NCBI RefSeq assembly: GCF_011764445.1
Contig: NZ_BLPG01000001.1
Coordinates: 1,612,001 to 1,676,000 of the forward strand
Direction: 5' to 3'
Origin: Phytohabitans rumicis
Lineage (GTDB): Bacteria > Actinomycetota > Actinomycetes > Mycobacteriales > Micromonosporaceae
Length of the DNA stretch: 64,000 nucleotides
Shown here piece by piece: positions 12,666 through 59,009 of this stretch. The notes below the pieces were generated by a model. That model made no database searches. It was not told the DNA's origin and worked only from the letters and a program-made list of their open reading frames with translations. The first letter of the stretch is position 1. Each line of letters begins with the position of its first letter. A program made the position numbers and the translations under genes.

Positions 12666-12682
12666 TGTCCGATCAATGAACA
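12666..12682. promoter_or_regulatory. IclR-type operator, site 1 (ALDH operon, island A)
   Basis: TGTCCGATCAATGAACA differs at only two positions from the site at 58178 (TGTTCGTTCAATGAACA). Both are followed by AC and then GG, and both lie just upstream of the paralogous aldehyde dehydrogenases. It sits in the gap between the NTF2-like gene and the dehydrogenase start at 12773, so it should control the hydroxyquinol genes. Confidence 0.6.
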
Positions 12683-12772
12683 ACGGGGTTCAAGGCTTGA
12701 CGCCGGCCACAGAGAGTTCGACACAACTGGGTTCGTGCGGCGATCGCCGCCGTCGTGGAGGTAAGGCGACAC

Positions 12773-14244
12773 ATGTCAGTTACTGAGACCGAGGTCCGGA
12801 CCTGCGACCTCCTCATCGCAGGCGAGCACGTCGCGGCCAAGGACGGCCGCTACTTCGAGACGACCGAGGCCCTGACCGGCGAACCGATCGCGCGGGTCGC
12901 GGCAGCCTCCGTCGACGATGTCAACCTTGCCGTGGACGCCGCGGCGGCTGCCCTTGCGCAGTGGTCGAGCCTTCCGCCGGCTGCACGGCGGTCGGTGCTG
13001 GAGCGTGCGGCCGTCCTGCTCGGCGAACGCACCGGCGAGATAGTCGCCACGATGAGCCGCGAGATGGGTGCCACGCTCCCCTGGTGCGGCTTCAACGTGC
13101 ACGTCGCGAAGGGCATGCTCGTCGAGGCGGCAGCCCAGGCGTACGCGGCCGTCGGCGAGGTCATCCCGTCGGACGTGCCCGGCCTGACCGCCCTCGGCGT
13201 GCGCCAGCCGGTCGGCGTTGTCGTCGGCATCGCACCGTGGAACGCACCGCTGATCCTCGGCGTGCGCGCCGTCGTGTGGCCGCTGGTGTGGGGCAACACC
13301 GTGGTGCTGAAGTCATCCGAGCAGACGCCACTCACCCAGGCCGCCATCGTCCAGGTGCTGCACGATGCGGGCGTGCCCGCCGGAGCGGTCAACCTCATCA
13401 GCAACGCGCCCGAAGACGGTCCGAGCGTCGTCGAGGCGCTGATCGCCCACCCGGCCGTGACTCGTGTGAACTTCACCGGATCGAGCCGGGTCGGCCGTAT
13501 CGTCGGCGAACTCGGCGGTCGCTACCTGACCCGGGTGGTCCTCGAGCTCGGCGGCAAGGCGCCTCTCCTGGTCCTTCCCGACGCGGACCTGGAGGAGGCC
13601 GCCGCCGCGGCCAGCTTCGGCGCCTTCATGAACCAGGGCGAGATCTGCATGTCGACCGAGCGCGTCATCGTCGACAGCGCTGTCGCCGACGATCTCTCCT
13701 CCCGCCTGGCCGAGCGTGCCGCCAAGCTTGTCGTCGGCCCCCGAGCGATCCCACCTCTCAGATCGGTCCGCTGGTCCACGCCCGCGCCCGCGACCACGTG
13801 ATGGCGCTCATCGAGGACGCCCGTGACAAGGGTGCGCAGATCCTGACCGGTGGCACGGCCGACGGCCTGTTCGTGAAGCCCACCGTGCTGCGCGGTGTCA
13901 CGCCGGACATGCGCATCTACGGCGAGGAGTCCTTCGGACCGGTCGTCTCGATCATCGAGGTGGACTCCACCGACGAAGCCGTCGCGGTCGCCAACGACAC
14001 CGAGTACGGGCTCTCCGCCGCGGTCTTCGGCAGGGATGCGGCCGCCGCGCTCGACGTGGCCCGCCGCATCAAGTCCGGCATCTGCCACATCAACGGCGCC
14101 ACCGTGCACGACGAGCCCCAGATGCCCTTCGGCGGCGTCGGCGCCAGCGGCTGGGGCCGATTCGGCTCCCGCGCCGCGCTGGAAGAGTTCACCGAGCTGC
14201 GCTGGATCACCATCCAGTCCGGATCCCGCCACTACCCCATCTGA
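12773..14244 (+). CDS. Aldehyde dehydrogenase, salicylaldehyde/vanillin-dehydrogenase-like (one frameshift)
   Basis: An NAD(P)-dependent aldehyde dehydrogenase of about 490 residues, predicted to oxidise an aromatic aldehyde to the acid. It has the IAPWNAPLILG segment, FTGSSRVGR, the catalytic glutamate in LELGGKAP and the nucleophilic cysteine in GEICMSTER. The frame breaks in a C run near 13740. Adding one C gives VVGPPSDPTSQIGP and 491 codons. ATG 12773 follows a strong site, GGAGGTAAGG. The intact paralogue at 56659-58113 ends with the same EFTELRWITIQSG segment. It heads a rightward operon with the NTF2-like, maleylacetate reductase and dioxygenase genes. Confidence 0.87.
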
Positions 14245-14284
14245 TGATGCGGCGACTGTCGAAGACCAGATCGGAGATCGCACG

Positions 14285-14881
14285 ATGTCGCAGGCCGACG
14301 ACGACCGCCACGAGATCCGGCAGCTCATCGAGGACTGGGCGCTGTGGCGCGATGCCGGGCAGTGGAGCCGCTTCGCCACGGTCTGGCATCCGCGCGACGG
14401 CTCGATGAGCGCCACCTGGTTCCACGGAAGCGCCACCGACTTCATCAAGGCCAGCCGTGAAGGCTTCGAGAACGGAGTCAGCATCCTCCACTTCCTGGGC
14501 GGCCACGCCGCGGACATCGCCGGCGACCGAGCCATCGCCCAGACGAAAATGACTATCAACCAGCGCGCGAGCATCGACGGCGTCGAGGTCGATGTCGTCT
14601 GCACCGGCCGCTTCTACGACTTCCTCTCCCGCCACGAGGGGCGCTGGACGATCGTGCGCCGGCAGCCGATCTACGAGAAGGACCGGCTCGACGTCGTCGA
14701 CCCCGCTGCCACACTGACGTTGGATCCGGAACTCCTGGGTCGGTTTCCGACCGGATATCGCCACTTGGCCTACCTGCAGACCAAGGCGGGTTTTACGGTG
14801 CGGGAAGGGCTTCCCGGCCTCACCGGCGGGGCGGTCGAGCAACTCTATGCCGACGGCGCGCAATGGCTGGCTGGAGGATGA
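14285..14881 (+). CDS. NTF2-like (SnoaL) domain protein
   Basis: A 198-residue protein with an N-terminal NTF2-like fold, starting DRHEIRQLIEDWALWRDAG and continuing with FATVWHPRDGSMSATWFHG, then IVRRQPIYEKDRLDVVDP. This pattern resembles polyketide cyclase, dehydratase or small dioxygenase beta-subunit folds. It is longer than the two other NTF2-like proteins nearby and not close to them. It lies between the aldehyde dehydrogenase and the maleylacetate reductase, so it probably acts on an intermediate of the same route. No catalytic residue can be assigned. Confidence 0.72.
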   Translation: MSQADDDRHEIRQLIEDWALWRDAGQWSRFATVWHPRDGSMSATWFHGSATDFIKASREGFENGVSILHFLGGHAADIAGDRAIAQTKMTINQRASIDGVEVDVVCTGRFYDFLSRHEGRWTIVRRQPIYEKDRLDVVDPAATLTLDPELLGRFPTGYRHLAYLQTKAGFTVREGLPGLTGGAVEQLYADGAQWLAGG

Positions 14882-14883
14882 CG

Positions 14884-15951
14884 ATGAGGTTCACTCACGA
14901 GACCCTTCCCCAGCGGGTGGTGTTCGCGGCCGGGGCGTCGCCCGCCGCCGTGGCTGCCGAGGTCCAGGCGCTCGGCGGTTCCAAGGTCATACTGATCGCG
15001 TCGGACCGCGAGAAGGAGTTGGCCGACCCCATCGCCAAGCAGATCCCCGTCGTGCTGCGTCACGAGGAGGTCGTGATGCACGTGCCGGTCGAGGTCGCGC
15101 GACGAGCCCGTCATGCGGCGGCCGGCGCGGGCGCGGACATCCTGGTCAGCGTCGGCGGCGGCTCGACCACGGGGCTGGCCAAGGCGGTGGCGATGACCAC
15201 CGGGCTGCCGATCGTCGCGGTACCCACCACCTACGCCGGCTCCGAGGCGACCAACGTGTGGGGCCTGACCGAGGGCGAGACCAAGACCACCGGCATGGAC
15301 AACAAGGTGCTGCCCGCGTCAGTCGTGTACGACGCCAGTCTGCTGACCACGCTGCCCGGTGAGATGACCGTGGCCAGCGGCCTGAACGCGATGGCGCACT
15401 GCGTGGACTCGATGTGGGGGCCACGGACCGACCCGATCGACCGGGCGCTGGCGCACGAGGCCATCCGCGCACTGGCGGCCGGCCTGCCGGCGGTGGCCGA
15501 CGACTCGACGAGCGTCGAGGGCATCGAGCAGACGCTGTACGGCGCCTACCTCGCCGCTGTCGCGTTCGCCTCGGCCGGCTCCGGGATGCATCACAAGATC
15601 TGCCACGTCCTCGGCGGCATGTTCAACCTCCCGCACGCACAGACCCACGCGGTCGTGCTGCCTTACGTGCTGGCCTTCAACGCCTCGCACGCCCCCGAGG
15701 CGGAGGCGCGTATCGCCCAGGCATTCGGCGCGGTGTTCGGCACCCAGACGGCCAGCGCCGGCCTGGCCGCCCTGCGCCAGGTGCTGGACGCGCCGAGGGC
15801 GCTGCGCGACTACGGCATGCCGAAGGTCGGCATTGCCAAGGCGCTCGGGCCGATCATGACGGCGATCCCGGCCAACAACCCCAGCCCCGTCACCGAGGAG
15901 AACCTGACCGCGCTGCTGGAGGCGGCGTGGGCCGGCGACCCGATCAGCTGA
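14884..15951 (+). CDS. Maleylacetate reductase
   Basis: A 355-residue iron-containing alcohol dehydrogenase family enzyme, predicted to reduce maleylacetate to beta-ketoadipate. It has the nucleotide-binding [27 protein letters not shown], and the metal-site histidine region ([23 protein letters not shown]). ATG 14884 is preferred over 14878 because GGAGG is better spaced and the paralogue at 61.1-62.1 kb also starts MRF. The following gene makes its substrate, so the pair converts hydroxyquinol to beta-ketoadipate, which the CoA transferase and thiolase at 6-8.5 kb can finish. Confidence 0.9.
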
Positions 15952-15962
15952 AGGAGCCCGTC

Positions 15963-16900
15963 ATGGCTACCTACGTCAACCCCGGCGCGGCCGAGGCGGG
16001 TGTCCACGGCACGATCTACCGCGAGGTGTCGCCGCAGCAGCAGGCAGTCGAGCAGCGGCTCGTCGACAACGTCGTGGCCTCCTTCGACGCCTGCGCCGAC
16101 CCGCGCCTGAAGGAGCTCATGGTCTGCCTGGTCAAGCACTTGCACTCCTTCATCCGCGAGGTCCGGCTGACCGAGAAGGAGTGGGGGGCGGCGATCGACT
16201 TCCTCACCAAGGCCGGCCACATCACCGACGACGTCCGGCAGGAGTTCATCCTGCTGTCCGACACCCTCGGCGCGAGCATGCAGACGATCAACGTGAGCAA
16301 CCAGGCATACCAGGGCGCCACCGAGGCGACCGTCTTCGGGCCGTTCTTCGTCGAGGATTCCCCGCAGATCGAGTTCGGCGGTGACGTGGCCTTCGGTGCC
16401 CCCGGCGAGCCTTGCTGGGTCGAGGGGACCGTCACCGACACCGACGGCAACCCGCTCGGTGGCGCCCGAATCGAGGTCTGGGAGGCTGACGAGGACGGGC
16501 TCTACGACGTGCAGTACGACGCTGATAAGCGCGCCGGCCGCGGCCATCTCTTCTCCGCGGCCGACGGCAGCTACCGCTTCTGGGGCCTCACTCCGACGCC
16601 GTACCCCATCCCCAACGACGGACCCGTCGGCAAGATGCTCGACGCGGTCGGCCGCTCACCACTGCGCGCCAGCCACCTGCACTTCATGGTGTCCCACGAG
16701 GGGGCGCGCACGCTGGTGACCCACATCTTCCCGGAGGGCGACCCGATCGGCCGCAAGGACACCGTCTTCGGCGTGAAGGACTCACTAATCAAACGGTTCG
16801 AGCGGCAGCCCGCCGGCACGCCAACGCCCGACGGACGCGTCATCGACCGCACGTGGAGCCGGGTGCGCTTCGACATCGTCCTCGCCCCGCGGGCGTGTGA
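15963..16900 (+). CDS. Hydroxyquinol 1,2-dioxygenase (3' frameshift)
   Basis: An intradiol dioxygenase of about 312 residues. An N-terminal helical dimerisation domain holds [16 protein letters not shown]. The catalytic beta domain has [28 protein letters not shown] and SHLHFMV, with two tyrosines and two histidines as iron ligands. It cleaves hydroxyquinol (1,2,4-trihydroxybenzene) to maleylacetate. As written the frame runs on to 17123 over the opposite-strand gene. One added C near 16886 gives the family ending [10 protein letters not shown] and a TGA at 16898-16900, identical to the end of the paralogue at 60223-61110. Chlorocatechol or catechol cleavage is a less likely alternative given the adjacent maleylacetate reductase. 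Confidence 0.88.
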
Positions 16901-16921
16901 CTGCGCCTGCCGCAGCGGTGC

Positions 16922-18625
16922 TCATGCATCGATCTCGATGCCGCCGAACGGACCTCCGCCCATCAGGACACGCTCCTCCGGAGGAACGGGCGCCAGGCTC
17001 ACTCGCACGTCGATACACGTCGGTCGCCGGGCCGCGAGGGCGGCCTCGATCGCCGGGCGAAGCTGGTCCAGTTCCGTGACGTCGACGCCGTCCGCACCGA
17101 GAGCTCGTGCCACGCCGCTGTAGGAGCCATTCTCCAGGCGGTTGTTGGTGACGCGATCCCGTCCGAAGAGCCACTCCTGCGTGTGCAAGGTGGCGCCCCA
17201 GGCTCGGTTATTGAGGACGATCACAACGACCGGAAGTCCCGCCCGGACGAGGGAGTCGAACTCGGCGAGGCTGTAGCCGACAGCGCCGTCGCCGGTGACG
17301 AGGATCGTCGCCTTGTCGGGGGCCGCGTACTGCGCTCCCAGAGCCACGCCAAAGTTGCTGCCCATCGAACTGAGGTAGCCGTGCCCGAGGTAGTGGGCCA
17401 GCGGCGCGAGCGCGATGGTCTCGGACAGCCACAGCTCTGTCAGAGCGCCGTCGACGACCACGGTGGCCCTGTCGGGGACGCACTCAGCAATCGTGCGGAC
17501 CGCGAGGTACGGGTGGATCGCGTCCTCATCCTTCTCCGCCTCGGTGGCGAGTGCGGACCGCCGGGCGGCCGAGACGTCCCGTAGGCTCCTCCGCCAGTCG
17601 TCACGCCCTGAGGGCACGGGGCTGTCGCCTAGGCGCTCGTTCAGGAGGCCGATCGTGCCGACCGGGTCGGCCTGGATGCCGAACTCGACATCCTGCAGAC
17701 GGCCGAGCTCACGGCCGTCGGGGTCGATCTGGAGTATCCGCGCGCTCTTCGGGAGCAGTCGGCCTGTGCCGAACTGGGTGGCCAATCCGAAGCGCAGCCC
17801 GAGCAGAAGGACAACGTCGGGCCGCTCGTCCTCCGGAACGGTGGCCAGGGTCTGGACGAGACCGACGTGCTGCTCGGAGCCGACGATCGCCCCGAGGCCC
17901 TCATAGTCGGAGAAGAGAGGCACTCCGGTGCGCGCGGCGAACTCATGCAACTGTGCCCGTGCCTCGGCGGTGACGAACGACTTGCCGACCAGCGCGATCG
18001 GCCGCTGGGCAGCGCTGAGCGCCTCGAGGATCTGATCGACGCCACGGGCGGGGGCGATGCCGGTGCCGTCGATCTCGAGGCGGTAGTCCTCGACCTCGTC
18101 GACGTCGACCGGCTGGCGAAGGACGTCCCAGGGAATGTCGAGCAGCACCGGGCCCTTGGGCTCGGACTGTGCGATGCGGATCGCCTGGGCGAGCAGGCGA
18201 GGGATCAGCTCGGCACGGGTAATGCGGTGCGCGAACTTGGTCACCGGGGCTGCCATGGCGATCTGGTCGAACCCGGCCTGCTGGTCGTTGACCTGGTCCA
18301 TCTCCAGTGGACCGGAGCCCGCGATATACAGCACCGCGGTCCGGTCCAGATAGGCGTTGGCGACCGAGGTCAAGACGTTGGTGAAGCCGCCACCGGCCGT
18401 GACGACGGCGACACCCAGATTTCCGGTGACCCGCGCATAGCCCTCGGCCGCGTGGCCGGCGTTCATCTCGTGACGCACGTCGACGATCCGAAGCTTGGCG
18501 TCCACGGCATCCTGGAAGATGCCGTCGACGTGTGCTCCGTTCAGGCCGAAGGCCACGTCGACTCCAGCTCGCCGCAGTGTTCGCACGACGAGCCCACTAC
18601 CGGTCGCGGCAACCATTCGCTGCAC
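16922..18625 (-). CDS. ThDP-dependent enzyme (acetolactate synthase/decarboxylase/lyase-like)
   Basis: A 567-residue three-domain thiamine-diphosphate enzyme, intact. The activating glutamate is in [16 protein letters not shown] near residue 50. The central domain runs through [19 protein letters not shown]. The ThDP motif [15 protein letters not shown]...VLNN is in the C-terminal domain. It could be a 2-oxo-acid decarboxylase, a C-C lyase of the benzaldehyde-lyase type, or a 2-hydroxyacyl-CoA lyase. It starts only 6 bases after the flavin monooxygenase, so the two are co-transcribed. Island B has a different ThDP enzyme, benzoylformate-decarboxylase-like, which suggests both islands use ThDP chemistry to feed an aldehyde to the dehydrogenase. 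Confidence 0.75.
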
Positions 18626-18631
18626 CGCCTC

Positions 18632-19855
18632 CTAAGAATGTTCGATGGATGGCTCATTGCCTGACGCTGCGACAGCGACCTCGGGGTCGTACTCGTAGAT
18701 CCAGCCGTTCGCTTCGAGCGGGTCGGCCTTCGAGTACGCCAGGTCGCGCGCCTGCTGCTCAGGGCCGTCGGGAAGGTGGTTGATGTGAGACCTTCCGTGC
18801 GACACCTGCTGCAGGCGTGCCGTGCGGGGTCGACGCAGCTGTTCGTAGCGCCTCAGCGCCGCGACCGGGTTGTCCCGGTCCGCTGCGAGGCAGAGGGCCA
18901 AGACAGCACCGTCCTCGATCGCCTGAGCAGCGCCTTGGGCGAAGAACGGGAACATCGGGTGGGCTGCGTCACCCAGCAGGGTCGCGTTTGCACGGTTCCA
19001 GCGGTCGAGGGGCTCGCGGTCGAGCAGCGCCCAGCGCCCTGGCGTGTCGGCAGCCCGGATCAGCTCCACCAGACGCGGATCCCAACCGGCGAACTCGTCG
19101 AGCAGTTCCTCGACCGTCGCGGTGGCCGTCCACGACTCGACGCTGTTGGCCCCAGCAGGTGCGAAGGCCACCAGGTTGACGTACATCTCGCCGGAGACCG
19201 GGTAATGCACGAGGTGGTGGTCGGGGCCGATCCAGAGGGTCTGGGCGCGCCGCTTGGCGAAGTCGGGTGCCTTCTCCGCCGGCACAAGAGCCCGGAAGGC
19301 GCAGATGCCTGACTCCCCGGCGTGAGTCGGCCCGACGATGGCGGTACGCACTCGTGAGTGGACTCCGTCTGCGCCGATGAGGATGTCCGGGCGAACCGTC
19401 TCGCCATCCTGGAACTGAAGAACCGCCTGGTCGTCTTCGAACTCGACCGAAACGCAGCGCTTGCCGAGGTGGATCGAGTGCTCGGGGACAGCTGACCTCA
19501 AGGCGTCCAGCAGGTCGGCGCGGTGGGCGGTGTAGGTGTGCTCGCCGTACAGGCGCATGCACTCCTCCTCCAAGCTCTCGGCGGAGAGGACGGCGCCGTT
19601 GTCCCAGCGCCGGAACTCCCAACCGATCTCCATCTGGACCGCGCGCTCGATGAACCGATCCAGCACGCCGAGGCGTCGGAGAAGGCGGGCGGCATTGGGC
19701 GCGATCACCAGGCCGGCACCCACCTCAGTCAGGGCGTCCGCCTGCTCGTACACGTCACTGTCCAAGCCCTTGGCCCGAAGGAACGCCGCGGCAGCCAGGC
19801 CCCCGATGCCGCCACCGAGGATCGCGAACTTAGGGCCGTCTTCCGTACTCATCAT
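18632..19855 (-). CDS. FAD-dependent aromatic monooxygenase (salicylate/6-hydroxynicotinate hydroxylase-like)
   Basis: A 407-residue group A flavin monooxygenase. It has the FAD-binding GGGIGGLAAAAFLRAKG near the N-terminus, the DG motif IGADGVHSRVR, and GDAAHPMFPFFAQGAAQAIEDG. This type hydroxylates an aromatic acid, often with loss of CO2. Island context suggests it makes hydroxyquinol, for example from a dihydroxybenzoate. The frame stays open far upstream, over iclR in antisense, but ATG 19855 (or 19852) gives the natural N-terminus. It is divergent from iclR at 19929 with an operator between them. The paralogue at 59050-60213 has the same arrangement. Confidence 0.85.
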   Translation of the reverse strand: MMSTEDGPKFAILGGGIGGLAAAAFLRAKGLDSDVYEQADALTEVGAGLVIAPNAARLLRRLGVLDRFIERAVQMEIGWEFRRWDNGAVLSAESLEEECMRLYGEHTYTAHRADLLDALRSAVPEHSIHLGKRCVSVEFEDDQAVLQFQDGETVRPDILIGADGVHSRVRTAIVGPTHAGESGICAFRALVPAEKAPDFAKRRAQTLWIGPDHHLVHYPVSGEMYVNLVAFAPAGANSVESWTATATVEELLDEFAGWDPRLVELIRAADTPGRWALLDREPLDRWNRANATLLGDAAHPMFPFFAQGAAQAIEDGAVLALCLAADRDNPVAALRRYEQLRRPRTARLQQVSHGRSHINHLPDGPEQQARDLAYSKADPLEANGWIYEYDPEVAVAASGNEPSIEHS

Positions 19856-19893
19856 GCTCTTGTACCCCCGGCAAACCGTTGTAAGGGCCACTT

Positions 19894-19910
19894 CATCCAT
19901 CCAACGAACA
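19894..19910. promoter_or_regulatory. IclR-type operator, site 2 (divergent monooxygenase/iclR)
   Basis: CATCCATCCAACGAACA matches the consensus in one half strongly (AACGAACA) and the other half loosely. Its reverse complement, TGTTCGTTGGATGGATG, is close to the site at 58993 (TGTTCATTGGATGGCCA), which sits in the same position in island B. It lies in the 73-bp gap between the two divergent starts. Confidence 0.5.
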
Positions 19911-19928
19911 TTGAAGTTAGAGTGAGCC

Positions 19929-20708
19929 ATGCCTCGCGCGAACGAGCCAGGACGCTCCGTCAGCTCCCGACTGTGGGATTTGCTGTTTGCCTTCGACCCC
20001 AACCACACCGAGCTGAGCCTCGCTGATCTGGTCCGACGTACTGGCATGCCGCACGCCACCGCCAGGCGCCTCACGCTCGAACTTGTCGAGGCCGGCGCGC
20101 TGGAACGCACCAGCGACAACCGGTTCGTGATCGGCTTGCCGCTGTGGCGTCTCGGCACTCTCGCACCGCGCGCCGAGACGCTTCGTAGCGCCGCGCAGCC
20201 GTTTGTGGAGGACCTATACACGGCACTTCGCCAGCATGTGCAGCTGGCCGTCCTCCAGGGCGACCGAGCCGTGATCATCGAACGACTGTCAGCGGTCAAC
20301 GCCGTTGGTCTGAGGTCGCAGATCGGCGGCCATCTGCCTTTGCATTGCTCAGGTATCGGCAAGGTGCTGCTGAGCCACAGCAGCCCCGCCTTCATCGATG
20401 AGGTGTTGGCGGGAGGGCTGCAGCGCTTCACCCCCAAGACGATCGTGGACCCGGCCGAACTGCGTCGCGAACTGGCGTCCTGTCGCGCGACCGGAACGGT
20501 GGTCGTCAAGGAAGAGTTGAGCGAAGGGGCCGAGTCGGTCGCGACGCGCATCATCGATGGCCGCGGCAACGTCGTCGCGGCCCTGTCTGTTGTGGTAGCT
20601 GCGGGCTCGATCGAACTGCAGGCGGCCGTTCCCTCGCTGGTCGCGAGCGGACTGGGATTGTCCAGGCGTCTCGGCTGGAGGCCCGGCATTCCCATTCGCA
20701 CCTCGTAA
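19929..20708 (+). CDS. IclR-family transcriptional regulator (island A)
   Basis: A 259-residue regulator with an N-terminal winged helix (LSLADLVRRTGMPHATARRL, residues about 27-50) and a C-terminal IclR effector domain (LPLHCSGIGKVLLSH, IIDGRGNVVAALSVVV). It is divergent from the flavin monooxygenase. Its paralogue at 58185-58970 starts with the same EPGRSVSSRL and is placed identically in island B. IclR proteins of aromatic pathways commonly bind palindromes near their target promoters. The six 17-bp sites listed here are the likely targets of one or both proteins. Confidence 0.85.
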   Translation: MPRANEPGRSVSSRLWDLLFAFDPNHTELSLADLVRRTGMPHATARRLTLELVEAGALERTSDNRFVIGLPLWRLGTLAPRAETLRSAAQPFVEDLYTALRQHVQLAVLQGDRAVIIERLSAVNAVGLRSQIGGHLPLHCSGIGKVLLSHSSPAFIDEVLAGGLQRFTPKTIVDPAELRRELASCRATGTVVVKEELSEGAESVATRIIDGRGNVVAALSVVVAAGSIELQAAVPSLVASGLGLSRRLGWRPGIPIRTS

Positions 20709-20736
20709 CCCTTGGCGGGGCGAGGAAACCGGCGCG

Positions 20737-21128
20737 TCATGCCGGCGGTTGCCGCCGGGACAGCTGCATGTGCCCGAGGCGCCATCCCTCGTCGGTCGAG
20801 AACCACAACCGTGTGGCCACCGCCTGAACCAGAAACGGCGGCAGGTCAGGCGAGCGCCGAACGCGCATTTTCTGAAAGCACGTCACGATAGCCCGTCCCC
20901 TCGCTCCAGACACGTCACCGCACTGGTCTCGGCCTCCACGATGGGTCCCATTGATGCGTCGTAACTGAGGAAGCGCTCGCGGTCATGGACGTTCCCGACC
21001 GGGCCGTGAACGACCACACAGTCGGGGAGCATGAGTTCACGCCGCTCCTCGCTGCCCTTTGTGATCGCGACGAGCCAGGCCGCCTCCGCCTGAGCGACCG
21101 TGTCCGGCACGCGGACGTCGGTGGTCAT
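20737..21128 (-). CDS. NTF2/SnoaL-like protein, paralogue of 12255-12659 (one frameshift)
   Basis: A 130-residue NTF2-like protein. The first part (TVAQAEAAWLVAITKG, VVHGPVGNVHDRERF) and the last part (AIVTCFQKM, DLPPFLVQAV, DEGWRLGHMQLSRRQPP) both match the protein at 12255 in order. The join near 20892 needs one more G in GACGGG. The corrected gene is 131 codons and ends with TGA at 20737-20739. AAGGAG lies 8 bases before the start. It follows the MFS transporter gene by 24 bases and is probably co-transcribed. The function is unknown. Confidence 0.7.
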
Positions 21129-21152
21129 CGTTGGACTCCTTTCCGGGTGCGG

Positions 21153-22862
21153 TCAGCCGTTGAGGGTGTGCGGGTCGTCGTCGAGATGGGCCTCGGCTAC
21201 ACCGCCGCGCCCACCCGCGAGAGTGAGTGCCGCCGCCACGAGAGCAGCCACGCCGCCGATCACGTACGCGGTGGAGTAACTGTGGCTGAGAGCGTCGAAA
21301 GCGACGTCCTTAAGTGGGTTGAAGGGCATGACCTGACCATCCGGCAGTGGGATGCTGGCCGGCACCGAGTTGGCGCCGAGCGGGCCCGAGGCTACGGCGT
21401 GAACCGCCGCCTCGAGCTGCGGTCTCTGATCCGCGGGAGCGTTGGCCGCAGAGGCATTGAAAGCCGCATAAGCGTTGCTCAGCTCGGGATTGCCGGCCAT
21501 GTTGCGGGCGATCTCCTTGGCGGCTTGGCCAAGCGCGACAGCACCGATGATCGCGGGGGCGAGGGCGAACCCGAGGTCCCGGATCGTGCTCGTGACACCG
21601 CTTGCCATGCCGGCGAGGTGGTTGGGCAACGTGTTGACCGCGACCGCGCTGATAGCGGAGATGGCCAGCGCCGAGCCGACGCCGACGAGGACTAAGGGCA
21701 CCACGATGGCGCCCAGCGCCCGATTGCTCGCCGGAACGCTGGCGAACCACAGCCCACCAGTGCCGATGAGGGTCAGGCCGGCGAAGAGAACCCACCGGGG
21801 GTTGTAGCGTTCAAGCAGCTTCGAGGTAAGCGGCAGCTGCACGAGGCCAATGCCTCCGAAGAACAGGTAGGCGACGGAGCTCCGCAGCGGGCTGAATCCC
21901 TGGATGGCCGTGAGGCGGATACTGGTGGAGTACATGATCGCGAGGAAGGCGAACATACCGATCAGGGTGACCACCGAGTTCATGGCGAACGCCCGGTTCT
22001 TGAACACGCTCAGGAGCAGGAGCGGCTCGGCCGCACGCCTCTCGGCGAAGACGAACAGCACGAGCAAGACGGCCGCGACGATGAACGCGATGACGATCTG
22101 CGGGCTCCCCCAGCCACTCTCGGGGCCCTGGATCACGGCATACAACAGAGCGAACAGGCCGAGCGCGGCGGTGATTTGACCCGGCCAGTCGATGGATCGG
22201 CCCGCGGGCGAGGCGGAGTTCTGGGCGAGGATCAGCGACACGACGACGCTCACCGCGGCGATGACAAGGACACCGATGTAGGCCCAGCGCCAGTTCGCAT
22301 TACCCGCCCATCCGCTTTGCATCTTGCCGGCGACGCCCGCCAGCAGCGGCCCAAGGAAGCCGCCGACGGAGAGCGCAGTGGCCCAGATCGCCACGCCACG
22401 CGCGCGGGTGGCGATGGTGTGCGTGCCGGCCGCCACCATCGCGAGGCTCGTCGGAAAGACGGCCGCAGCCCCGACGCCGTTGAGGAGTTGGGCGAGGATC
22501 AGCAACCCCACCCGGGTGTTGGTCGAGGATCCTTCACCTGGCACCAGGATCGCGAGAGCCGAGCCCACCACAATGAGCGCGGCGCCCCCCATGAGGAGGC
22601 GCTTGCGACCGAACAGGTCACCGAACACGCCGAAGCCCAGGCCCAACGCGGCGACGGGAAGCATGAAGATGTCGAGAATCCACGTCAGCTGGGCCGAGGA
22701 CGGCGCGAGATCCTGCTGGATCAGCCCCGTGATAAGCGAGGGGACGGAAAGGGCCATCTGTGCAAGGCAGACGGCGAGAACCACCGCCGCCAGAGTGCCG
22801 GCTCTCAGGGTGTATCTCCCACCGGCGCCACTTGCCGCACTGGATGAATCGATCTGGACCAT
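21153..22862 (-). CDS. MFS transporter, DHA2 (14-helix drug:H+ antiporter-like) family
   Basis: A 569-residue membrane protein with about 14 hydrophobic segments and the signatures LDIFMLPVAALGL (helix 2), GDLFGRKRLLMGG (the loop 2-3 motif) and LLNGVGAAAVFPTSLAMV. The family usually exports drugs or metabolites by proton antiport; some members import. A hydrophilic loop near the C-terminus (residues about 465-525) is longer than usual. An IclR-type palindrome lies 140 bases upstream, so it is likely part of the hydroxyquinol regulon, moving a substrate in or a toxic intermediate out. AAGGAG precedes ATG 22862. Confidence 0.85.
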   Translation of the reverse strand: MVQIDSSSAASGAGGRYTLRAGTLAAVVLAVCLAQMALSVPSLITGLIQQDLAPSSAQLTWILDIFMLPVAALGLGFGVFGDLFGRKRLLMGGAALIVVGSALAILVPGEGSSTNTRVGLLILAQLLNGVGAAAVFPTSLAMVAAGTHTIATRARGVAIWATALSVGGFLGPLLAGVAGKMQSGWAGNANWRWAYIGVLVIAAVSVVVSLILAQNSASPAGRSIDWPGQITAALGLFALLYAVIQGPESGWGSPQIVIAFIVAAVLLVLFVFAERRAAEPLLLLSVFKNRAFAMNSVVTLIGMFAFLAIMYSTSIRLTAIQGFSPLRSSVAYLFFGGIGLVQLPLTSKLLERYNPRWVLFAGLTLIGTGGLWFASVPASNRALGAIVVPLVLVGVGSALAISAISAVAVNTLPNHLAGMASGVTSTIRDLGFALAPAIIGAVALGQAAKEIARNMAGNPELSNAYAAFNASAANAPADQRPQLEAAVHAVASGPLGANSVPASIPLPDGQVMPFNPLKDVAFDALSHSYSTAYVIGGVAALVAAALTLAGGRGGVAEAHLDDDPHTLNG

Positions 22863-23001
22863 GGACGACTCCTTGCGCGCAAGCGCTGCTATCGGACCGG
22901 CGTCCGCCGACGGACCTTGCTAATGAAGGACGCCCGGCGTGCTGGCTGAACCGCCGAGCAGCGACAAGTTAGGTTGTGGCTCCCGTCACGCTCAACGGGC
23001 A

Positions 23002-23018
23002 TGTTCATTGGATGAACA
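23002..23018. promoter_or_regulatory. IclR-type operator, site 3 (MFS operon)
   Basis: TGTTCATTGGATGAACA is a near-perfect dyad: TGTTCAT and ATGAACA match exactly around TGG. It lies upstream of the MFS transporter and its NTF2-like partner, with no other gene between. Confidence 0.65.
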
Positions 23019-23044
23019 GGCCACCGCTCAGCAGTCACCGCGAA

Positions 23045-23072
23045 CGGCCATCCCTCGCATAAGGGATGGCCG
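23045..23072 (-). terminator. Hairpin terminator after the lipocalin-like gene
   Basis: CGGCCATCCCT and AGGGATGGCCG form a perfect 11-bp stem with the 6-base loop CGCATA, starting 30 bases beyond the stop of the leftward gene at 23102. There is no long U-tract, as is common in GC-rich genomes. It separates that gene from the MFS promoter. Confidence 0.65.
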
Positions 23073-23101
23073 TCAGGGCTGGTGGGATCGGACTCGGGCG
23101 G

Positions 23102-24169
23102 CTACTGCAAGCTGTTGGTGACTTCGACGTAGCTGGAGCCGGTGGCGCGTCGGCCGTCATATGTCCCGGCGACGGTGGCGCTGGCTTCGAGCACGGATCC
23201 GAGTTCCTGGTTGTTGGCTGTCGCGGTGACCTTGAGCGTGGTGCGGAGGCCAGGGATGGTGACGGTCCAGCGGGTGGGGTAGGTCTTGTGGGTGGCCGGG
23301 CTGGTCCAGGTGCCGGAGAGGTCGGGTGTGATGGTGGCCTCGGTGACGGTTTGGGTACCGTTAGGCGCGAGGGCGGTCACCCACGTGTTCGTCGTGGTGC
23401 TGGTGGTCTTCCATAGGCTCATCCTGGTCCCGTCGGACAGGCTCAGTCCCATCCAGGTCCAGCCGGTCTGTCCCGTGCCCAAGGCAGGTAGAGGGCCCCA
23501 CTGGCGGTCCAGCCAGGACTGGCCGTGCAGTTTCTGTGTGCGTCCGTTGAGGGTGAGGGTGCCTGAGGTGTCGATGGTGGGCAGGGCGTACTCGTAGTTC
23601 GGGTATCTGGCATCGGCGAACATCGGGAAGTAGCCGGTGCCCATGTTGTAGAGGACCGGTCCGCGCGGGCGGAGCGTCACGTCGATCTGTCCCTCGGGAA
23701 CCGTGGCGTGCAGGGTCATTTTGGTCGTGTCGCCGGTCCAGGTGATGTTCTGGGTACGGATGTCCACCCCCGGAGCATGGGAAAGGCCCACTCGCGCGGG
23801 AAGGTTGAGCACCGACTGGGTGTACCACCCGGTGGTCTCATCCGTGATCGACACCTTCGAAGTGGAGGCCCCGCGTGCCGCGTCCCCGAGAGCCACGTAG
23901 TGCGCCACGAATGCGTAGCGGTGTCCGCCGGCGGTGACGTGGGCGGTGAGATACCAGGACTCGTTGCTCCGGTCGGGGTTGGCGGTGAGGTCTGCTTCCG
24001 CGTCGACGAGAACGGGAAGGTTGGTCTGGCTCAACCCGTGCCCGGTGGCGCCGCTCGAGGTGGTGGGTGCGTTCGTTGGGGTGGCCGTCGCGGGCCCCGG
24101 CGCGATGACCGCGGACACGGTGATGACCGCCGCCAGGGCGGCGGCGCCGCCCTTGAATGCCCTGTGCAT
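23102..24169 (-). CDS. Secreted lipocalin-like (CrtC/AttH-type) protein
   Basis: A 355-residue protein with a Sec signal peptide: a short positive N-terminus, then AALAAVITVSAVIAPGPATA. The mature part has blocks typical of the CrtC/AttH lipocalin-like family: a YLTAHVTAGGHRYAFVAHYV strand pair, SWLDRQWGPLP, TGWTWMGLSLSDGT and SSYVEVTNS at the end. Relatives include hydroxyneurosporene synthase (CrtC)-like and AttH proteins, but the chemistry here is unknown. The start at 24169 has AGGAG 7 bases upstream. It follows the solute-binding protein gene on the same strand, so both may handle the same extracellular compound. Confidence 0.7.
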   Translation of the reverse strand: MHRAFKGGAAALAAVITVSAVIAPGPATATPTNAPTTSSGATGHGLSQTNLPVLVDAEADLTANPDRSNESWYLTAHVTAGGHRYAFVAHYVALGDAARGASTSKVSITDETTGWYTQSVLNLPARVGLSHAPGVDIRTQNITWTGDTTKMTLHATVPEGQIDVTLRPRGPVLYNMGTGYFPMFADARYPNYEYALPTIDTSGTLTLNGRTQKLHGQSWLDRQWGPLPALGTGQTGWTWMGLSLSDGTRMSLWKTTSTTTNTWVTALAPNGTQTVTEATITPDLSGTWTSPATHKTYPTRWTVTIPGLRTTLKVTATANNQELGSVLEASATVAGTYDGRRATGSSYVEVTNSLQ

Positions 24170-24222
24170 GGATGGCTCCTCGTCGCTGGATTTGGATGTG
24201 GGTTCAGGTCCAAGACCCGGGC

Positions 24223-25348
24223 TCAGCTGCCGGGGTGTAGTCCGAGCCAGCCGGGTGTGGGTGCCCCCTGGACTTCGCCGAAGTAAAGGGCGAAGGTCTG
24301 CTTCCAACGTTCGACTTCGGCGCGGTCGGCCATGAAGCGGGGAAGCCGTCGAGGTGGGCGTTGGGGTATTGCCAGATCGGCTTGAGGCCGCCGGCGGGGG
24401 TGACGTCGGTGCGGACGGACCAGCCGTCGAAAGCGGCCTGTTGTACGGGCGTGGACAGCTGCCAGTTGAGGTAGAGCTTGGCGGCGGCGGGGTGCTTGGC
24501 GCCGGCGAGGATCGCCGCACGATGTCCCCAGGCCATGAACGGGTGGCGGTCCGGTGCGACCCAGCGCACGCCGGGTACCAGGGGTCCGGTCAGCGAGCCA
24601 AAGCCGCCGATACCGATCAACTTCTGTTTGCTGGCGACCGCGACGACCGGGGTCGGGGTGCCCCGGCCGAACTGTACGTTCTGCGCGGCGAGCCGGCGCA
24701 CCCACTCCCAGCCGTACGCCTGCGTGTACAGCTTGTACAGGTACAGCACGGCGTCGTCGTCGTGCGGGTAGGACGACGCGATCGCGCCCTTCCAACGCGG
24801 GTCGACCAGGTCACGCGGTGAGGCGGGTCCCCCGGCGCCGAGGCTGTCGTCGTACATGTAGCTGAATGCGACGACCGACGTGGCGATCCAGGCGCCGTCC
24901 GGGTCCCTGAAGGCCGGGTACAGCTTGGCGAACCCGGCCGGCTTGTACGGGCGCAGCACCCCCAGGCTCTTCCAGCGGGTGAAGTCCTGCAGCGTCTGCA
25001 ACTGCACCACGTCCGGCACCAGAGTGCCGGTGGCGAGCTGGTTGTCGACGCGAACGTCGTGGTACTTGCTGTAGTCCACGACCAGCGTCAGCTTGATGTC
25101 CGGGAACTGGGCCAGGAACGCCTGTTTGGTGCCGTCCTGCTGGTCGGGGTGTCCCCACCGGCATAGATGACCAGCTCGCCGTCTTCGCGCCGCGCGGCTG
25201 CGTACAACTCCTCCAGCGACTTGGTCTCCTCCGAGACGCGCGCGCCCCCAGTCGCCGCGTCGGCCCGGCCCGCGACCGATGTGGCCAGCGCCGCCGCCCC
25301 GGCCAGCGCGCCCGTGCCGAGCACCCCGCGCCTGCTCATGGTTGCCAT
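24223..25348 (-). CDS. ABC-transporter solute-binding protein (iron/polyamine-type, two frameshifts)
   Basis: An extracellular solute-binding protein of about 375 residues. The N-terminus (MATMSRRGVLGTGALAG) looks like a twin-arginine signal, ending near GRADAA. Later segments include VVDYSKYHDVRVDNQLATG, FAKLYPAFRDPDGAW and RWKGAIASSYPHDDDAVLY, typical of family 1 binding proteins. Two breaks are seen, near 25157 and 24337. Each is repaired by one C, which gives the C-terminus FMADRAEVERWKQTFALYFG and 376 codons. No permease or ATPase gene is adjacent. It is divergent from the MarR gene with two palindromes between. Confidence 0.72.
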
Positions 25349-25373
25349 CAGCAACTCCTCTCCCCTACATGTT

Positions 25374-25423: not shown

Positions 25424-25444
25424 AACACGTGGTACGGTGAGCCT

Positions 25445-25919: not shown

Positions 25920-25936
25920 TGTTCGTTGAACGAACA
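25920..25936. promoter_or_regulatory. IclR-type operator, site 4 (SDR gene)
   Basis: TGTTCGTTGAACGAACA is a perfect 17-bp palindrome around a central G, the best copy in the window. It lies 88 bases upstream of the SDR start at 26024 and just past the MarR stop at 25909. Confidence 0.65.
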
Positions 25937-26023: not shown

Positions 26024-26770
26024 ATGGCTGGAAGATTGGCCGGCAAGACTGCGGTCGTGACCGGGGGCGGTGCCGGTATCGGGCAGGAGATCGCCCGTAG
26101 GCTCGCGTCGGAGGGAGCGGACATCGCGGTCGCGGACGTCAATCCGGCCGACGAGACGCGGGAACTCGTTGCGGAGACCGGCCGGCGATTCTTCAGCGAC
26201 AAGGTCGACATCTCGGACCAGGACGCGATCCACCGCTTTGCCGCGCGGGTCCGAAGTGAGCTCGGGGCCGCCGATATCCTGGTGAACAACGCGGCCGTCG
26301 TGCTGCTGGCTGATATCGACCACGTGACACTCGACGACTGGCGTCGCACCTTCGCCGTCAACGTGGACGGCGCCTTTCTGGCCTCCAAGGCGTTCCTGCC
26401 AGACCTGAAGGAGTCCGGGTCAGGACGGATCGTCAACATCACCTCGTCGAGCTACTGGACGCCGCCGCCTCCATTCGTCTCCTATGTCTCGGCCAAGGGC
26501 GCGCTGAACGGATTCACCTCCGTCCTGGCCGCCAACCTCGCCGCTCACAACATCACCGTCAACGGCGTCGCCGCGAGCCTGGTCCGTACGGCCGCTGCCG
26601 CGGCGAACACGAGCGAGGCGTTCTTCGACCAGACCGTGCGGATCCAGAACATCAAGCGCGTGCAGATGCCGGCCGATGTCTCGGGCGTCGTGGCGTTCCT
26701 CGCCTCCGACGACGCCGCGTTCATCACGGGCCAGATCATCGTCGCGGACGGCGGCAGCACCCGCCGCTAA
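26024..26770 (+). CDS. Short-chain dehydrogenase/reductase
   Basis: A 248-residue classical SDR. It has the cofactor motif TGGGAGIG near residue 13, NNAA near residue 87, and the catalytic serine in NITSSSYW with Y and K in SYVSAKG. The aspartate in VADVN suggests NAD(H) preference. The end, FITGQIIVADGGSTRR, is typical of the FabG-like group. The start has AGGGAGAG 4 to 10 bases upstream. With a perfect IclR-type palindrome in its promoter it is probably co-regulated with the hydroxyquinol islands, perhaps acting on a side-chain alcohol. Confidence 0.87.
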   Translation: MAGRLAGKTAVVTGGGAGIGQEIARRLASEGADIAVADVNPADETRELVAETGRRFFSDKVDISDQDAIHRFAARVRSELGAADILVNNAAVVLLADIDHVTLDDWRRTFAVNVDGAFLASKAFLPDLKESGSGRIVNITSSSYWTPPPPFVSYVSAKGALNGFTSVLAANLAAHNITVNGVAASLVRTAAAAANTSEAFFDQTVRIQNIKRVQMPADVSGVVAFLASDDAAFITGQIIVADGGSTRR

Positions 26771-56658: not shown

Positions 56659-58113
56659 TCAGATCGGGTAGTGGCGTTCGCCCGACTGGATGGTGATCCA
56701 GCGCAGTTCGGTGAACTCCTCGAGCGCGGCGCGGGAGCCGAACCGTCCCCAGCCGCTCGCGCCGACTCCGCCGAACGGCATCCGCGGTTCGTCGTGCACC
56801 GTCGCACCGTTGACGTGGCATATCCCGGACCGGATCCGCCGGGCGACGTCGAGACCGTTCGTGCCGTCGCGGGTGAACACGGCGGCGGCCAGTCCGTAGT
56901 CGGTGTCGTTCGCCGCCCGGACGGCGTCGTCGGCCCCGTCGACCTCGATGATCGCGACGACCGGGCCGAAAGACTCCTCGCTGTGGATGCGCATCTGCGG
57001 TGTCACGCCGCGCAGCACTGTCGGCGCGACGTACAGGCCGTCGGCCGTGCCTCCGGTGAGTATCTCGGCGCCGAGCTCGCGTGCCTCGTCGATCAGGGCC
57101 AGTACGTGGCCGCGGGCGCCGGCGTGGACGAGCGGCCCGATCTGCGAGGTGGGGTCGTCGGGTGGGCCGACGACGAGCTTGGCGGCCCGGTCGGCCAATC
57201 GTGCGCTGAAGTCGTCGGCGACGGCGCGATCGACGATCGCCCGCTCGGTCGACATGCAGATCTGGCCGGCGTTCATGAACGCGCCGAAGCTGGCGGCCGC
57301 GGCGGCCTCGTCCAGGTCGGCGTCGGCGAGCACGACGAGCGGCGCCTTGCCGCCCAGTTCCAGGACGGCGCGGGTCAGATGCCGGCCGGCCAGCTCGCCG
57401 ATGATCCGGCCGACGCGGGTCGAGCCGGTGAAGTTGACCCGGGCGACCTGCCGGTGCGCGACGAGCGCTTCCACGATCGTGGCCGCGTCTTTCGGAGCGT
57501 TGGTGATGAGATTGACCGCGCCGGCCGGTGCGCCGGCCTCGTGCAGGATCTCGATGATCGCCGCCTGTGTGCAGGGTGTCTGCTCGGAGGCTTTGAGGAC
57601 GACTGTGTTGCCGTAGACCAGTGGCATGGCCACCGCGCGTACGCCGAGGATCAGTGGCGCGTTCCACGGTGCGATACCGACAACCACGCCGACGGGCTGC
57701 CGGATGCCGAGAGCGGTAAGGCCGGGCACGTCCGAGGGGATCACCTCGCCGACGGCGGAGTACGCCTGCGCGGCGGCCTCCACCAGCATCCCCTTCGCGA
57801 CGTGGACGTTGAACATGCACCACGGCCGGGTGGCGCCCATCTCCCGGCCCATCAGCGCGGACAGCTCGTCGGCCCGCTCACCCAGCAGGGCCGCGGCCCG
57901 TTCGAGCACCTGCCGGCGGCGGGCCGGCGGCAGGGCTGACCACTCGGCCAGCGCCCCGGCCGCGGCGTCGACGGCACGCTCCGCGTCCGCGACGGAGGCC
58001 GCCGCGACCCGCGCGATGGGCTCGCCGGTGAGTGCCTGCACGGTCTCGACGTAGCGGTCGCCTTCGGCGGGGACGCGGTTGCCGTCGATGAAGAGATCGG
58101 AGATTGCTGGCAT
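56659..58113 (-). CDS. Aldehyde dehydrogenase, aromatic (island B)
   Basis: A 484-residue intact aldehyde dehydrogenase, paralogous along its length to 12773-14244. It has GIAPWNAPLILGVRAVAMPL, FTGSTRVGR, catalytic glutamate LELGGKAP and cysteine GQICMSTER, and the shared FGGVGASGWGRFGSRAALEE. It should oxidise a benzaldehyde to the benzoate, fed by the decarboxylase 26 bases downstream. GGAGG lies just ahead of ATG 58113, and an IclR-type site lies at 58178. The frame stays open upstream over iclR in another frame, which I discard. Confidence 0.9.
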   Translation of the reverse strand: MPAISDLFIDGNRVPAEGDRYVETVQALTGEPIARVAAASVADAERAVDAAAGALAEWSALPPARRRQVLERAAALLGERADELSALMGREMGATRPWCMFNVHVAKGMLVEAAAQAYSAVGEVIPSDVPGLTALGIRQPVGVVVGIAPWNAPLILGVRAVAMPLVYGNTVVLKASEQTPCTQAAIIEILHEAGAPAGAVNLITNAPKDAATIVEALVAHRQVARVNFTGSTRVGRIIGELAGRHLTRAVLELGGKAPLVVLADADLDEAAAAASFGAFMNAGQICMSTERAIVDRAVADDFSARLADRAAKLVVGPPDDPTSQIGPLVHAGARGHVLALIDEARELGAEILTGGTADGLYVAPTVLRGVTPQMRIHSEESFGPVVAIIEVDGADDAVRAANDTDYGLAAAVFTRDGTNGLDVARRIRSGICHVNGATVHDEPRMPFGGVGASGWGRFGSRAALEEFTELRWITIQSGERHYPI

Positions 58114-58177
58114 CGCTTCCTCCCGGGGTCGGCTGCCCCGTGAGTGTCCAGCGCTCGTTGGGCCGCGATTACGCACC

Positions 58178-58194
58178 TGTTCGTTCAATGAACA
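58178..58194. promoter_or_regulatory. IclR-type operator, site 5 (ALDH operon, island B)
   Basis: TGTTCGTTCAATGAACA is a near-perfect palindrome, 65 bases upstream of the aldehyde dehydrogenase start and overlapping the iclR stop codon. It corresponds in sequence and position to site 1 at 12666. Confidence 0.65.
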
Positions 58195-58970
58195 ACGGAG
58201 GAGGCCTTGATGCCGGGGTGCCAGCCGAGCCGGCGGGACAGGCCGAGTCCGCTGGCGATGACGGTGGGCAGCACCGCCTGGTGGCTTACCGAGCCGGACC
58301 GCACGACCACCGACAGCGCGGCGACCACCCGGCCCTGGCCGTCCATGATGCGTGTGGCGACGGAGTCGGCGCCGGGGGTCAGTTCCTCGCGGACGGTCGC
58401 CGTGCCGGTCAGTCGGCAGTCGGCGAGCTCTTTCCGCAGCGCGGCGGTGTCCACTGTGGTCTGTGGCGTGTAGCGTCGTAGTGGGCCGGACAGGACGCTC
58501 TCGACCAGCTCCGCGCCGCCGTGGCTGAGCAGCACCTTGCCCACTCCTGAGCAGTGCAGGGGCAGCCGACCGCCGACCTGGGAGACCAGGCCGAGCGCGG
58601 CCGGTGCGGACAGCCGTTCGATGATGACCGCCTGCTCGCCTTCCAGGACCGCGAGCTGGACGTGCTGGTGCAGCGCCGTGTACAGGTCTTCGATGAACGG
58701 CTGCGCCGCCGTCCGCAGCGACTCGGTCAGCGGCGCCAGCGTGCCGAGCCGCCACAGGCGCAAGCCGATGGTGAACCGGCCGTCATCCCGCCGGCTCAAC
58801 GCCTCAGCGCTGCTAAGCTCCACCACCAGGCGGCGGACCGTCGCGTGCGGCAGACCCGTCTTCCGCACGATCTCGGCGAGGCTCAGATGGGGCTGCTCGG
58901 GCGTGAACGCGAACAGCACCTCCAGCAGGCGGGAGCTCACACTCCGGCCGGGTTCACCGGTGCGAGGCAT
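58185..58970 (-). CDS. IclR-family transcriptional regulator (island B)
   Basis: A 261-residue paralogue of 19929-20708, with EPGRSVSSRLLEVLFAF, the winged helix LSLAEIVRKTGLPHATVRRL, LPLHCSGVGKVLLSHGG and MDGQGRVVAALSVVVRSG. ATG 58970 is chosen by alignment with the paralogue start. It is divergent from the flavin monooxygenase at 59050 and lies upstream of the aldehyde dehydrogenase, with an IclR-type site on each side. The recognition helices of the two paralogues are very similar, so cross-regulation between the islands is likely. Confidence 0.86.
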   Translation of the reverse strand: MPRTGEPGRSVSSRLLEVLFAFTPEQPHLSLAEIVRKTGLPHATVRRLVVELSSAEALSRRDDGRFTIGLRLWRLGTLAPLTESLRTAAQPFIEDLYTALHQHVQLAVLEGEQAVIIERLSAPAALGLVSQVGGRLPLHCSGVGKVLLSHGGAELVESVLSGPLRRYTPQTTVDTAALRKELADCRLTGTATVREELTPGADSVATRIMDGQGRVVAALSVVVRSGSVSHQAVLPTVIASGLGLSRRLGWHPGIKASSVVH

Positions 58971-58992
58971 TCCGCGTCCCATCCCTTCGACA

Positions 58993-59009
58993 TGTTCATT
59001 GGATGGCCA
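58993..59009. promoter_or_regulatory. IclR-type operator, site 6 (divergent iclR/monooxygenase)
   Basis: TGTTCATTGGATGGCCA has one strong half (TGTTCATT) and one weaker half. It sits in the 79-bp gap between iclR and the monooxygenase, as site 2 does in island A. Confidence 0.5.

Follow-up and report, generated by a model that had tools for sequence, protein, structure and literature searches.

Several aromatic pathways of bacteria are controlled by regulators of the IclR family, such as PobR, PcaU and PcaR in Acinetobacter baylyi and Pseudomonas putida. Gamma-resorcylate is degraded via hydroxyquinol, and the regulator of this pathway in Rhodococcus jostii RHA1, TsdR, is also an IclR-family protein. 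Here we analysed a stretch of 64,000 nucleotides from Phytohabitans rumicis (contig NZ_BLPG01000001.1, positions 1,612,001 to 1,676,000), called the window below, which carries two islands of genes for aromatic degradation (9.9-27 kb and 56-61 kb), each with its own IclR-family gene, iclR1 and iclR2. Six related 17-bp dyads, starting at 12666, 19894, 23002, 25920, 58178 and 58993, are very probably operators of these sister regulators, and would form one aromatic-degradation regulon, to which a major facilitator superfamily (MFS) transporter and a short-chain dehydrogenase/reductase (SDR) also belong.

The closest described class of sites is the group-1 TGT-11-ACA class of IclR proteins, whose consensus is given as TGTYCRYW3RYGRACA and in which aromatic-catabolism genes are over-represented (Suvorova and Gelfand 2021, PMC8222616). 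The strong sites of the window fit this consensus, with TGT and ACA ends 11 apart, and a site is present in the own promoter of both iclR genes. The sites 19894 and 58993 carry one degenerate half. The regulon here is larger than in the account of PMC8222616, which names own expression plus one or two adjacent operons. The operators of PcaU (TTTGTTCGATWATCGMACAMA) and PobR (TTGTCCGATSATCGGACAR), as listed in Table 1 of that paper, have the same 17-bp frame and differ from our strong sites mainly at the inner symmetric pair, which is CGAT-W-ATCG there and CGTT-N-AACG here. The best family for both IclR proteins was TIGR02431 (pcaR_pcaU, NCBIfam), with 138.9 and 141.5 bits against a cut-off of 284.75; because this is about half of the cut-off, they are not called PcaR or PobR. 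In addition, the pathway here is that of hydroxyquinol and not of protocatechuate, and an adjoining third half-site is absent: extra half-sites scoring at least 7 within 60 bp were found only at +41 from 23002 (8.8) and at +56 from 58993 (8.1). The TsdR operator GTGTGRYTSSMRTCAYAC (PMC8222616, Table 1) does not resemble the sites of the window.

The consensus pattern TGTTCRTTNAAYGAACA had five matches in the window at three mismatches or fewer, while 0.07 were expected from dinucleotide shuffles and none of 100 shuffles reached five. In the whole genome (10,714,690 bases in three contigs) there were 12 such sites, against four for the reversed control pattern, so the refuting case put forward in the earlier note, a motif equally common elsewhere, was not found at this stricter pattern. 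One stretch of 46 kb in the window holds five of these 12, among them every site with two mismatches or fewer (0, 0, 1 and 2). For a preset 46 kb the expectation was 0.05 and the probability of at least five of 12 about 1e-9, or about 3e-7 allowing for all such stretches. Because the pattern was drawn from these very sites, tests on held-out sequences count more.

For this purpose relatives were scanned with an alignment of IclR1 and IclR2, and the best 80 of 96 found were taken, which are 79 loci from named organisms, among them Streptomyces, Nonomuraea, Actinomadura and Actinoplanes, in stretches of about 20 kb anchored on iclR. Together with four stretches from the own genome (83 loci), they contained 126 sites at three mismatches or fewer, five of them in the own-genome stretches, and a single site for the reversed pattern. 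Palindrome-constrained motif discovery in 160-bp iclR promoters (79 from relatives and two from the window), to which the consensus was not supplied, returned TGTTCATTGAATGAACA with a score of 715 in 40 starts; three shuffled sets with 15 starts each reached 26, 27 and 35, and the estimated fraction of the 81 promoters with a site was 0.91. From the relatives, 53 distinct sites of iclR promoters were then counted into a matrix. It ranked exactly the six dyads first in the window, with scores of 21.2-30.9, the seventh place being 20272 at 14.0, and the highest score over 30 simulated windows was 18.8. Seventeen places outside the window, taken from the matches listed for the consensus pattern and for a looser one (see below), were scored too, and 15 of them had at most 15.5. 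The place C1:7533052 (19.6) is inside an open frame and was rejected.

All six 17-mers of the earlier note were found where it had placed them. Its three near-perfect palindromes were verified, with eight of eight symmetric pairs in 25920 and seven of eight in both 23002 and 58178, and at most one mismatch to the consensus in each; 12666 and 58993 are paired at five of eight positions and 19894 at three. The site at 12666 is in the gap between a SnoaL-like gene (end 12659) and the aldehyde dehydrogenase gene ALDH1 (start 12773), 19894 is between iclR1 (start 19929) and the divergent FAD monooxygenase gene FMO1 (start 19852), and 23002 is about 140 bp ahead of the MFS gene (start 22862). The site 25920 is between a MarR gene (end 25909, 10 bp away) and the SDR gene (start 26024), and 58993 is between the divergent iclR2 (start 58970) and FMO2 (start 59050). 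These five are intergenic, as had been stated of all six, whereas 58178 overlaps the iclR2 stop codon (58185-58187) and is 64 bp ahead of ALDH2 (start 58113). Sites at equivalent places of the two islands had been described as most alike, which holds for 12666 and 58178 (2 mismatches; same strand, yet opposite orientation relative to their genes) and fails for 19894 and 58993, since the nearest site to 58993 is 23002 (2 mismatches) and four mismatches separate 19894 from 23002 and likewise from 58993.

The site 19894 alone was unconvincing, for a place within a ROK coding sequence, 62204, equally has four mismatches. We accepted 19894 because the identical 17-mer, CATCCATCCAACGAACA, is conserved before iclR1 in five relatives (L005, L011, L021, L022 and L024), and dropped 62204 (matrix score 11.2) as a seventh site. 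At the place equivalent to 12666, relatives L011, L013, L015, L016, L017 and L021 have TGTTCGATGAAYGGACA. A site just after iclR2 is found in L036, L040, L042, L047 and L051, the next matched gene being that of the dioxygenase (DIOX) in L036 and ALDH in L051. Only L026 of the 79 loci showed tandem sites, a single pair 19 bp apart, and a half-site-like GTTCA stretch, conserved about 22 bp after the start of the ALDH operator, remained under the half-site threshold. A perfect palindrome, GCGGCGATCGCCGC, also occupies 12737-12750, some 22 bp upstream of where ALDH1 starts, and is kept in 7/7 aligned upstream stretches.

For the content of the regulon, sites were counted in the relatives at a matrix threshold of 12 within 300 bp upstream of matches with at least 60% identity, an alignment start no more than 12 residues from the N-terminus and at least 120 bp of upstream sequence; other matches were dropped. 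A site was present ahead of MFS in 17/17, SDR in 14/14, FMO1 in 17/17, the benzaldehyde-lyase-like gene (TPP) in 18/19 and ALDH in 9/12. The same matrix found none ahead of SnoaL4 (0/22), DIOX (0/37) and Rieske (0/1). The maleylacetate reductase gene MAR1 was preceded by a site in 6/30, all six of which come from a distant clade with MAR1 and iclR in divergent orientation. The MFS and SDR genes occur together in 14 iclR1-type loci, in 11 of which they are divergent around one common site; in L006, L008 and L010 the SDR gene is inverted and the two genes have separate sites. In the window they are about 3 kb apart, each with its own site, and CrtC-like, solute-binding and MarR genes are between them. 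The CrtC/lipocalin-like gene (23102-24520) has 52-65% matches in the same island of L005, L015 and L060. Relatives have an additional site between FMO and the lyase gene, which the window lacks because the two genes are only 6-7 bp apart there.

A search not anchored on iclR was made in 295 genomes of one genus (that of G355), at E up to 1e-200 for the lyase and up to 1e-100 for the SDR; some of these genomes may share species with the anchored loci. The lyase was found in nine genomes and the SDR in eight, all eight among the nine. One of the eight has only a 67% SDR, and for the other seven to fall within the nine the chance is 1e-12, with kinship ignored. SDR loci with at least 84% identity had an upstream site scoring at least 24 in 9/9 cases, while of three paralogues at 67-68% one had no site and two had only sites of a different type, scoring 16. 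The lyase had a site in 9/10 loci besides that of the window (L104, L114-L122). MFS homologues at 48-58% identity had a site in 0/7. The inclusion of MFS and SDR in the regulon, which had been predicted from the window, is thus supported by the counts in relatives, by SDR orthologues found without iclR and by the negative SnoaL4 and DIOX genes.

Two arrangements in relatives are recorded beside these counts. Streptomyces griseorubiginosus has an iclR1-type locus and a second iclR/FMO locus on one 62-kb contig (L008 and L057), as in the window. In L017 (13338-15822), an island-2-type FMO and a dioxygenase with an operator (13611) adjoin the island-1 MFS, and no FMO1 match was shown there. In other genomes of the same genus as P. 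rumicis the exact motif occurred in 0/5, and the only iclR1 match at E <= 1e-50 was 47% identical, so the islands look accessory.

Both regulators have the N-terminal HTH_IclR and C-terminal IclR_C domains in about 250 amino acids, and the recognition helix PHATxRRL is common to them. The next closest IclR proteins of this genome are 48% and 43% identical and have different helices. Proteins with the helix xPxxTxRRL (P/R) have mostly TGTTCATT-like sites and the 12 proteins with LRHATAHR (R/H) mostly TGTCCGNT. Both half-sites had C at position 4 for 12/12 proteins of the R/H type and for 2/53 of the P/R type that have a site; another four proteins, with different combinations, were placed in neither group. 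Seven proteins with a PL[AST][TS]xHRL-type helix had no site in six cases and a different site in one. This co-change of helix and site agrees in kind with the published contacts, since the predicted DNA contacts of IclR proteins are reported in PMC8222616 to come mostly from the recognition helix. Together with motif discovery and the matrix ranking, it supports the earlier proposal that the dyads are IclR operators.

Several observations weigh against this picture. Four loci with the P/R helix (L016, L048, L050 and L065) lack a site within 160 bp upstream of iclR, and the correlated change of helix and site probably belongs to one clade and hence is one event. The place C1:3929815, where an open frame of 141 aa without evident link begins, scores 22.4, as high as window sites. 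Sites are wanting in 3/12 relatives for ALDH, in 1/19 for TPP and in the lyase locus L117, and FMO2 is preceded by one in only 7/11. The matrix scan gave no operator ahead of the Rieske or DIOX2-MAR2 genes, and therefore not every pathway-like gene is covered. The MFS and SDR counts are not independent, because the loci were anchored on iclR and the two genes often share one site. A looser pattern, TGTYCRTYSRAYGRACA, at three mismatches or fewer in the whole genome, had 241 places against 205 for its control, which is no clear excess. This last result, and the four deviations of 19894 with an equal place in coding DNA, are what might be expected if the dyads were palindromic by chance or a by-product of low complexity at high GC. 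Such an origin was rejected, as it is refuted by the shuffles, the stricter whole-genome pattern, the matrix and the 126 sites against one of the reversed-pattern control, and its probability is negligible.

A further objection comes from look-alike palindromes. Of 150 genomes in the family, seven contain exact TGTTCRTTNRAYGAACA: that of the window and those of L084-L089. In the latter six the palindrome precedes an MFS gene that is 25-30% identical to our MFS gene, and a gene of TetR type lies on its far side (TetR_N and TetR_C_1 by Pfam in L084, L086, L087 and L089; the same sequence in longer frames in L085 and L088). So the palindrome alone is not IclR-specific and the gene context decides. 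The six promoters share the palindrome TGTTCGTT-N-RACGAACA with our sites and differ from them by extra flanking GAAC/GTTC repeats (for example GAACAGTGTTCG...CGAACACTGTTC in L084), by the TetR-type gene and by having no pathway-query match other than MFS. They would be in favour of the MFS and SDR sites belonging to the TetR genes at 26.9-28.6 kb with a similar palindrome, or to the MarR gene (25418-25909), which ends 10 bp before 25920. We consider this ownership very improbable: the two TetR queries of the window had no match at 1e-15 in L005-L083, where the site is conserved, and the motif is before iclR/FMO in L029, L047 and L056, loci with no MFS, SDR, MarR or TetR match. Moreover, a different inverted repeat lies in the promoter of the MarR gene, just ahead of it (25367-25430, 24-nt arms 88% complementary); it is probably the operator of MarR itself and is unlike the IclR sites. 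It is likewise unlikely, though a good deal less so, that IclR1 serves island 1 only and IclR2 island 2 only, the motif being shared by ancestry with no cross-binding. Each island does have its own divergent iclR/FMO pair, the 20-kb stretches of relatives usually show one pair, and IclR proteins are described in PMC8222616 as generally regulating themselves and one or two adjacent operons. On the other side, the helix positions PHATxRRL are identical in both proteins, only 1-2 bases separate the best sites of one island from those of the other (25920/58178 and 23002/58178), and in L017 the island-2-type genes with their operator adjoin the island-1 MFS, with an iclR1 orthologue as neighbour.

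We therefore continue with a single regulon, in which IclR1 and IclR2 would each bind sites of both islands; this cross-binding seems likely, as it is expected from the shared recognition helix. They would act as dimers with one half-site per monomer. The regulon would consist of iclR1 with FMO1 and the benzaldehyde-lyase-like gene, the ALDH1-SnoaL4-MAR1-DIOX1 operon, MFS, SDR, ALDH2, and iclR2 with FMO2. The site centres are 27 and 31 nt before the start codons of iclR1 and iclR2, which suits autorepression. The iclR genes would thus repress themselves, and control of the structural genes would depend on an effector that is probably one of the aromatic acids or aldehydes of the pathway. A promoter-like sequence, TTGAGC-N17/18-TAnnTT, begins 6 nt after the MFS site and was seen by eye in 8/9 aligned rows (L018 without the -10); because the site ends so shortly before it, activation is somewhat favoured for MFS. 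A scan of 12600-26100 with a sigma-70-type consensus called no promoter, including in the TTGAGC stretch.

Table 1. Predicted operators and pathway genes of the window. Mismatches are counted against the consensus pattern, and matrix scores and ranks are from the matrix of relatives' sites.
Feature	Coordinates	Strand	Place, closest relatives and scores
aldehyde dehydrogenase 1 operator (predicted) TGTCCGATCAATGAACA	12666..12682		ahead of ALDH1-SnoaL4-MAR1-DIOX1; 2 mismatches; matrix 21.2, rank 6 in window
aldehyde dehydrogenase 1 (ALDH1)	12773..14244	+	PF00171; two frames, broken near 13740 beside run of five C (sequencing error or decay)
SnoaL_4-like protein	14285..14881	+	PF13577 1e-14
maleylacetate reductase 1 (MAR1)	14863..15951	+	PDB: 3iv7, called an alcohol dehydrogenase IV (E 9e-136), and maleylacetate reductase 3w5s (E 9e-68)
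hydroxyquinol 1,2-dioxygenase 1 (DIOX1)	16023..16889	+	tblastn 70% to DIOX2
benzaldehyde-lyase-like ThDP enzyme (TPP)	16922..18625	-	adjoins FMO1; PDB 8y8m, 8y7s (E about 1e-195), then 3d7k, 2ag0 (about 1e-170)
FAD monooxygenase 1 (FMO1; decarboxylative hydroxylase / tropone monooxygenase-like)	18632..19852	-	PDB 8rqh, 8r2t, 8x38
operator (predicted) CATCCATCCAACGAACA	19894..19910		divergent FMO1/iclR1 promoter; weak half on FMO side; 4 mismatches; matrix 21.7, rank 5
iclR1	19929..20708	+	PF01614 5e-36, PF09339 1e-9; TIGR02431 below cut-off
SnoaL-like gene downstream of MFS	20743..21098	-	tblastn, two pieces; similar matches between iclR1 and MFS in relatives
DHA2-type MFS transporter	21153..22862	-	PF07690; TIGR00711 below cut-off
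operator (predicted) TGTTCATTGGATGAACA	23002..23018		ahead of MFS; 1 mismatch; matrix 29.3; relatives 17/17
operator (predicted) TGTTCGTTGAACGAACA	25920..25936		ahead of SDR; perfect palindrome; 0 mismatches; matrix 29.3; relatives 14/14
SDR	26024..26770	+	closest solved relative (S)-1-phenylethanol dehydrogenase, 2ew8 E 1e-68
aldehyde dehydrogenase 2 (ALDH2)	56659..58113	-	PF00171 1e-149
operator (predicted) TGTTCGTTCAATGAACA	58178..58194		ahead of ALDH2, over iclR2 stop codon; 0 mismatches; matrix 30.9, rank 1
iclR2	58185..58970	-	PF09339 4e-9, PF01614 1e-34; 68% identical to iclR1
operator (predicted) TGTTCATTGGATGGCCA	58993..59009		divergent iclR2/FMO2 promoter; 3 mismatches; matrix 23.7, rank 4
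FAD monooxygenase 2 (FMO2)	59050..60213	+	PDB 8rqh E 9e-85, 8x38 E 4e-71
hydroxyquinol 1,2-dioxygenase 2 (DIOX2)	60223..61110	-	1tmx E 5e-147; no operator found ahead

The genes of the two islands (Table 1) include hydroxyquinol 1,2-dioxygenase and maleylacetate reductase, so that a hydroxyquinol pathway is indicated, by sequence relationship only. The closest solved relatives of both FMOs are tropone 2-monooxygenase and decarboxylative vanillate hydroxylase. The top PDB matches of the TPP gene, 8y8m and 8y7s, are unnamed TPP-binding proteins, and the match to the solved benzaldehyde lyase extends over about 555 amino acids. Several genes are split between frames or pieces: ALDH1 (about 13740), MAR2 (about 62020), an ALDH-like gene at 40539-41935 and possibly the SnoaL-like gene at 20743-21098. 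Sequencing indels are therefore the likelier cause of the ALDH1 and MAR2 breaks. The window also has a 662-nt inverted repeat (27971-28632 and 33686-34347, 95% alike) with two copies of a TetR gene, and the roughly 5 kb that it flanks carry ABC permease and ATPase genes of the branched-chain type.

From the closest solved relatives, a route from aryl carbinol through acyloin, aldehyde, acid, hydroxyquinol and maleylacetate to 3-oxoadipate can be proposed. The SDR would oxidise an aryl carbinol to an aryl acyloin, which the benzaldehyde-lyase-like enzyme would cleave to an aromatic aldehyde. ALDH would turn the aldehyde into the acid, and FMO would hydroxylate the acid with loss of CO2, giving hydroxyquinol. 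Hydroxyquinol would then be cleaved to maleylacetate and this be reduced to 3-oxoadipate. Such a route of aryl alcohol, acyloin cleavage and hydroxyquinol may be undescribed. Neither the regulon nor a lyase-to-hydroxyquinol route was found described in the titles and abstract starts listed from open-licence PMC literature, which is weak evidence of absence. We suggest tentatively, as a possibility short of an even chance, that the two IclR proteins share one operator set over both islands to run this undescribed route from carbinol through acyloin and a benzaldehyde-lyase-like enzyme to hydroxyquinol, which would give benzaldehyde lyase a physiological role in actinomycetes.

The regulon is of a conserved but ordinary bacterial kind, with no new kind of mechanism. 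The IclR proteins with P/R and R/H helices, with matching changes in their operators, provide a natural series for the study of recognition. For an actinomycete hydroxyquinol pathway, the analysis supplies an operator and a regulon, together with two candidate regulators. It also links a transporter and an alcohol dehydrogenase to this pathway, and predicts a purpose for the benzaldehyde-lyase-like enzyme.

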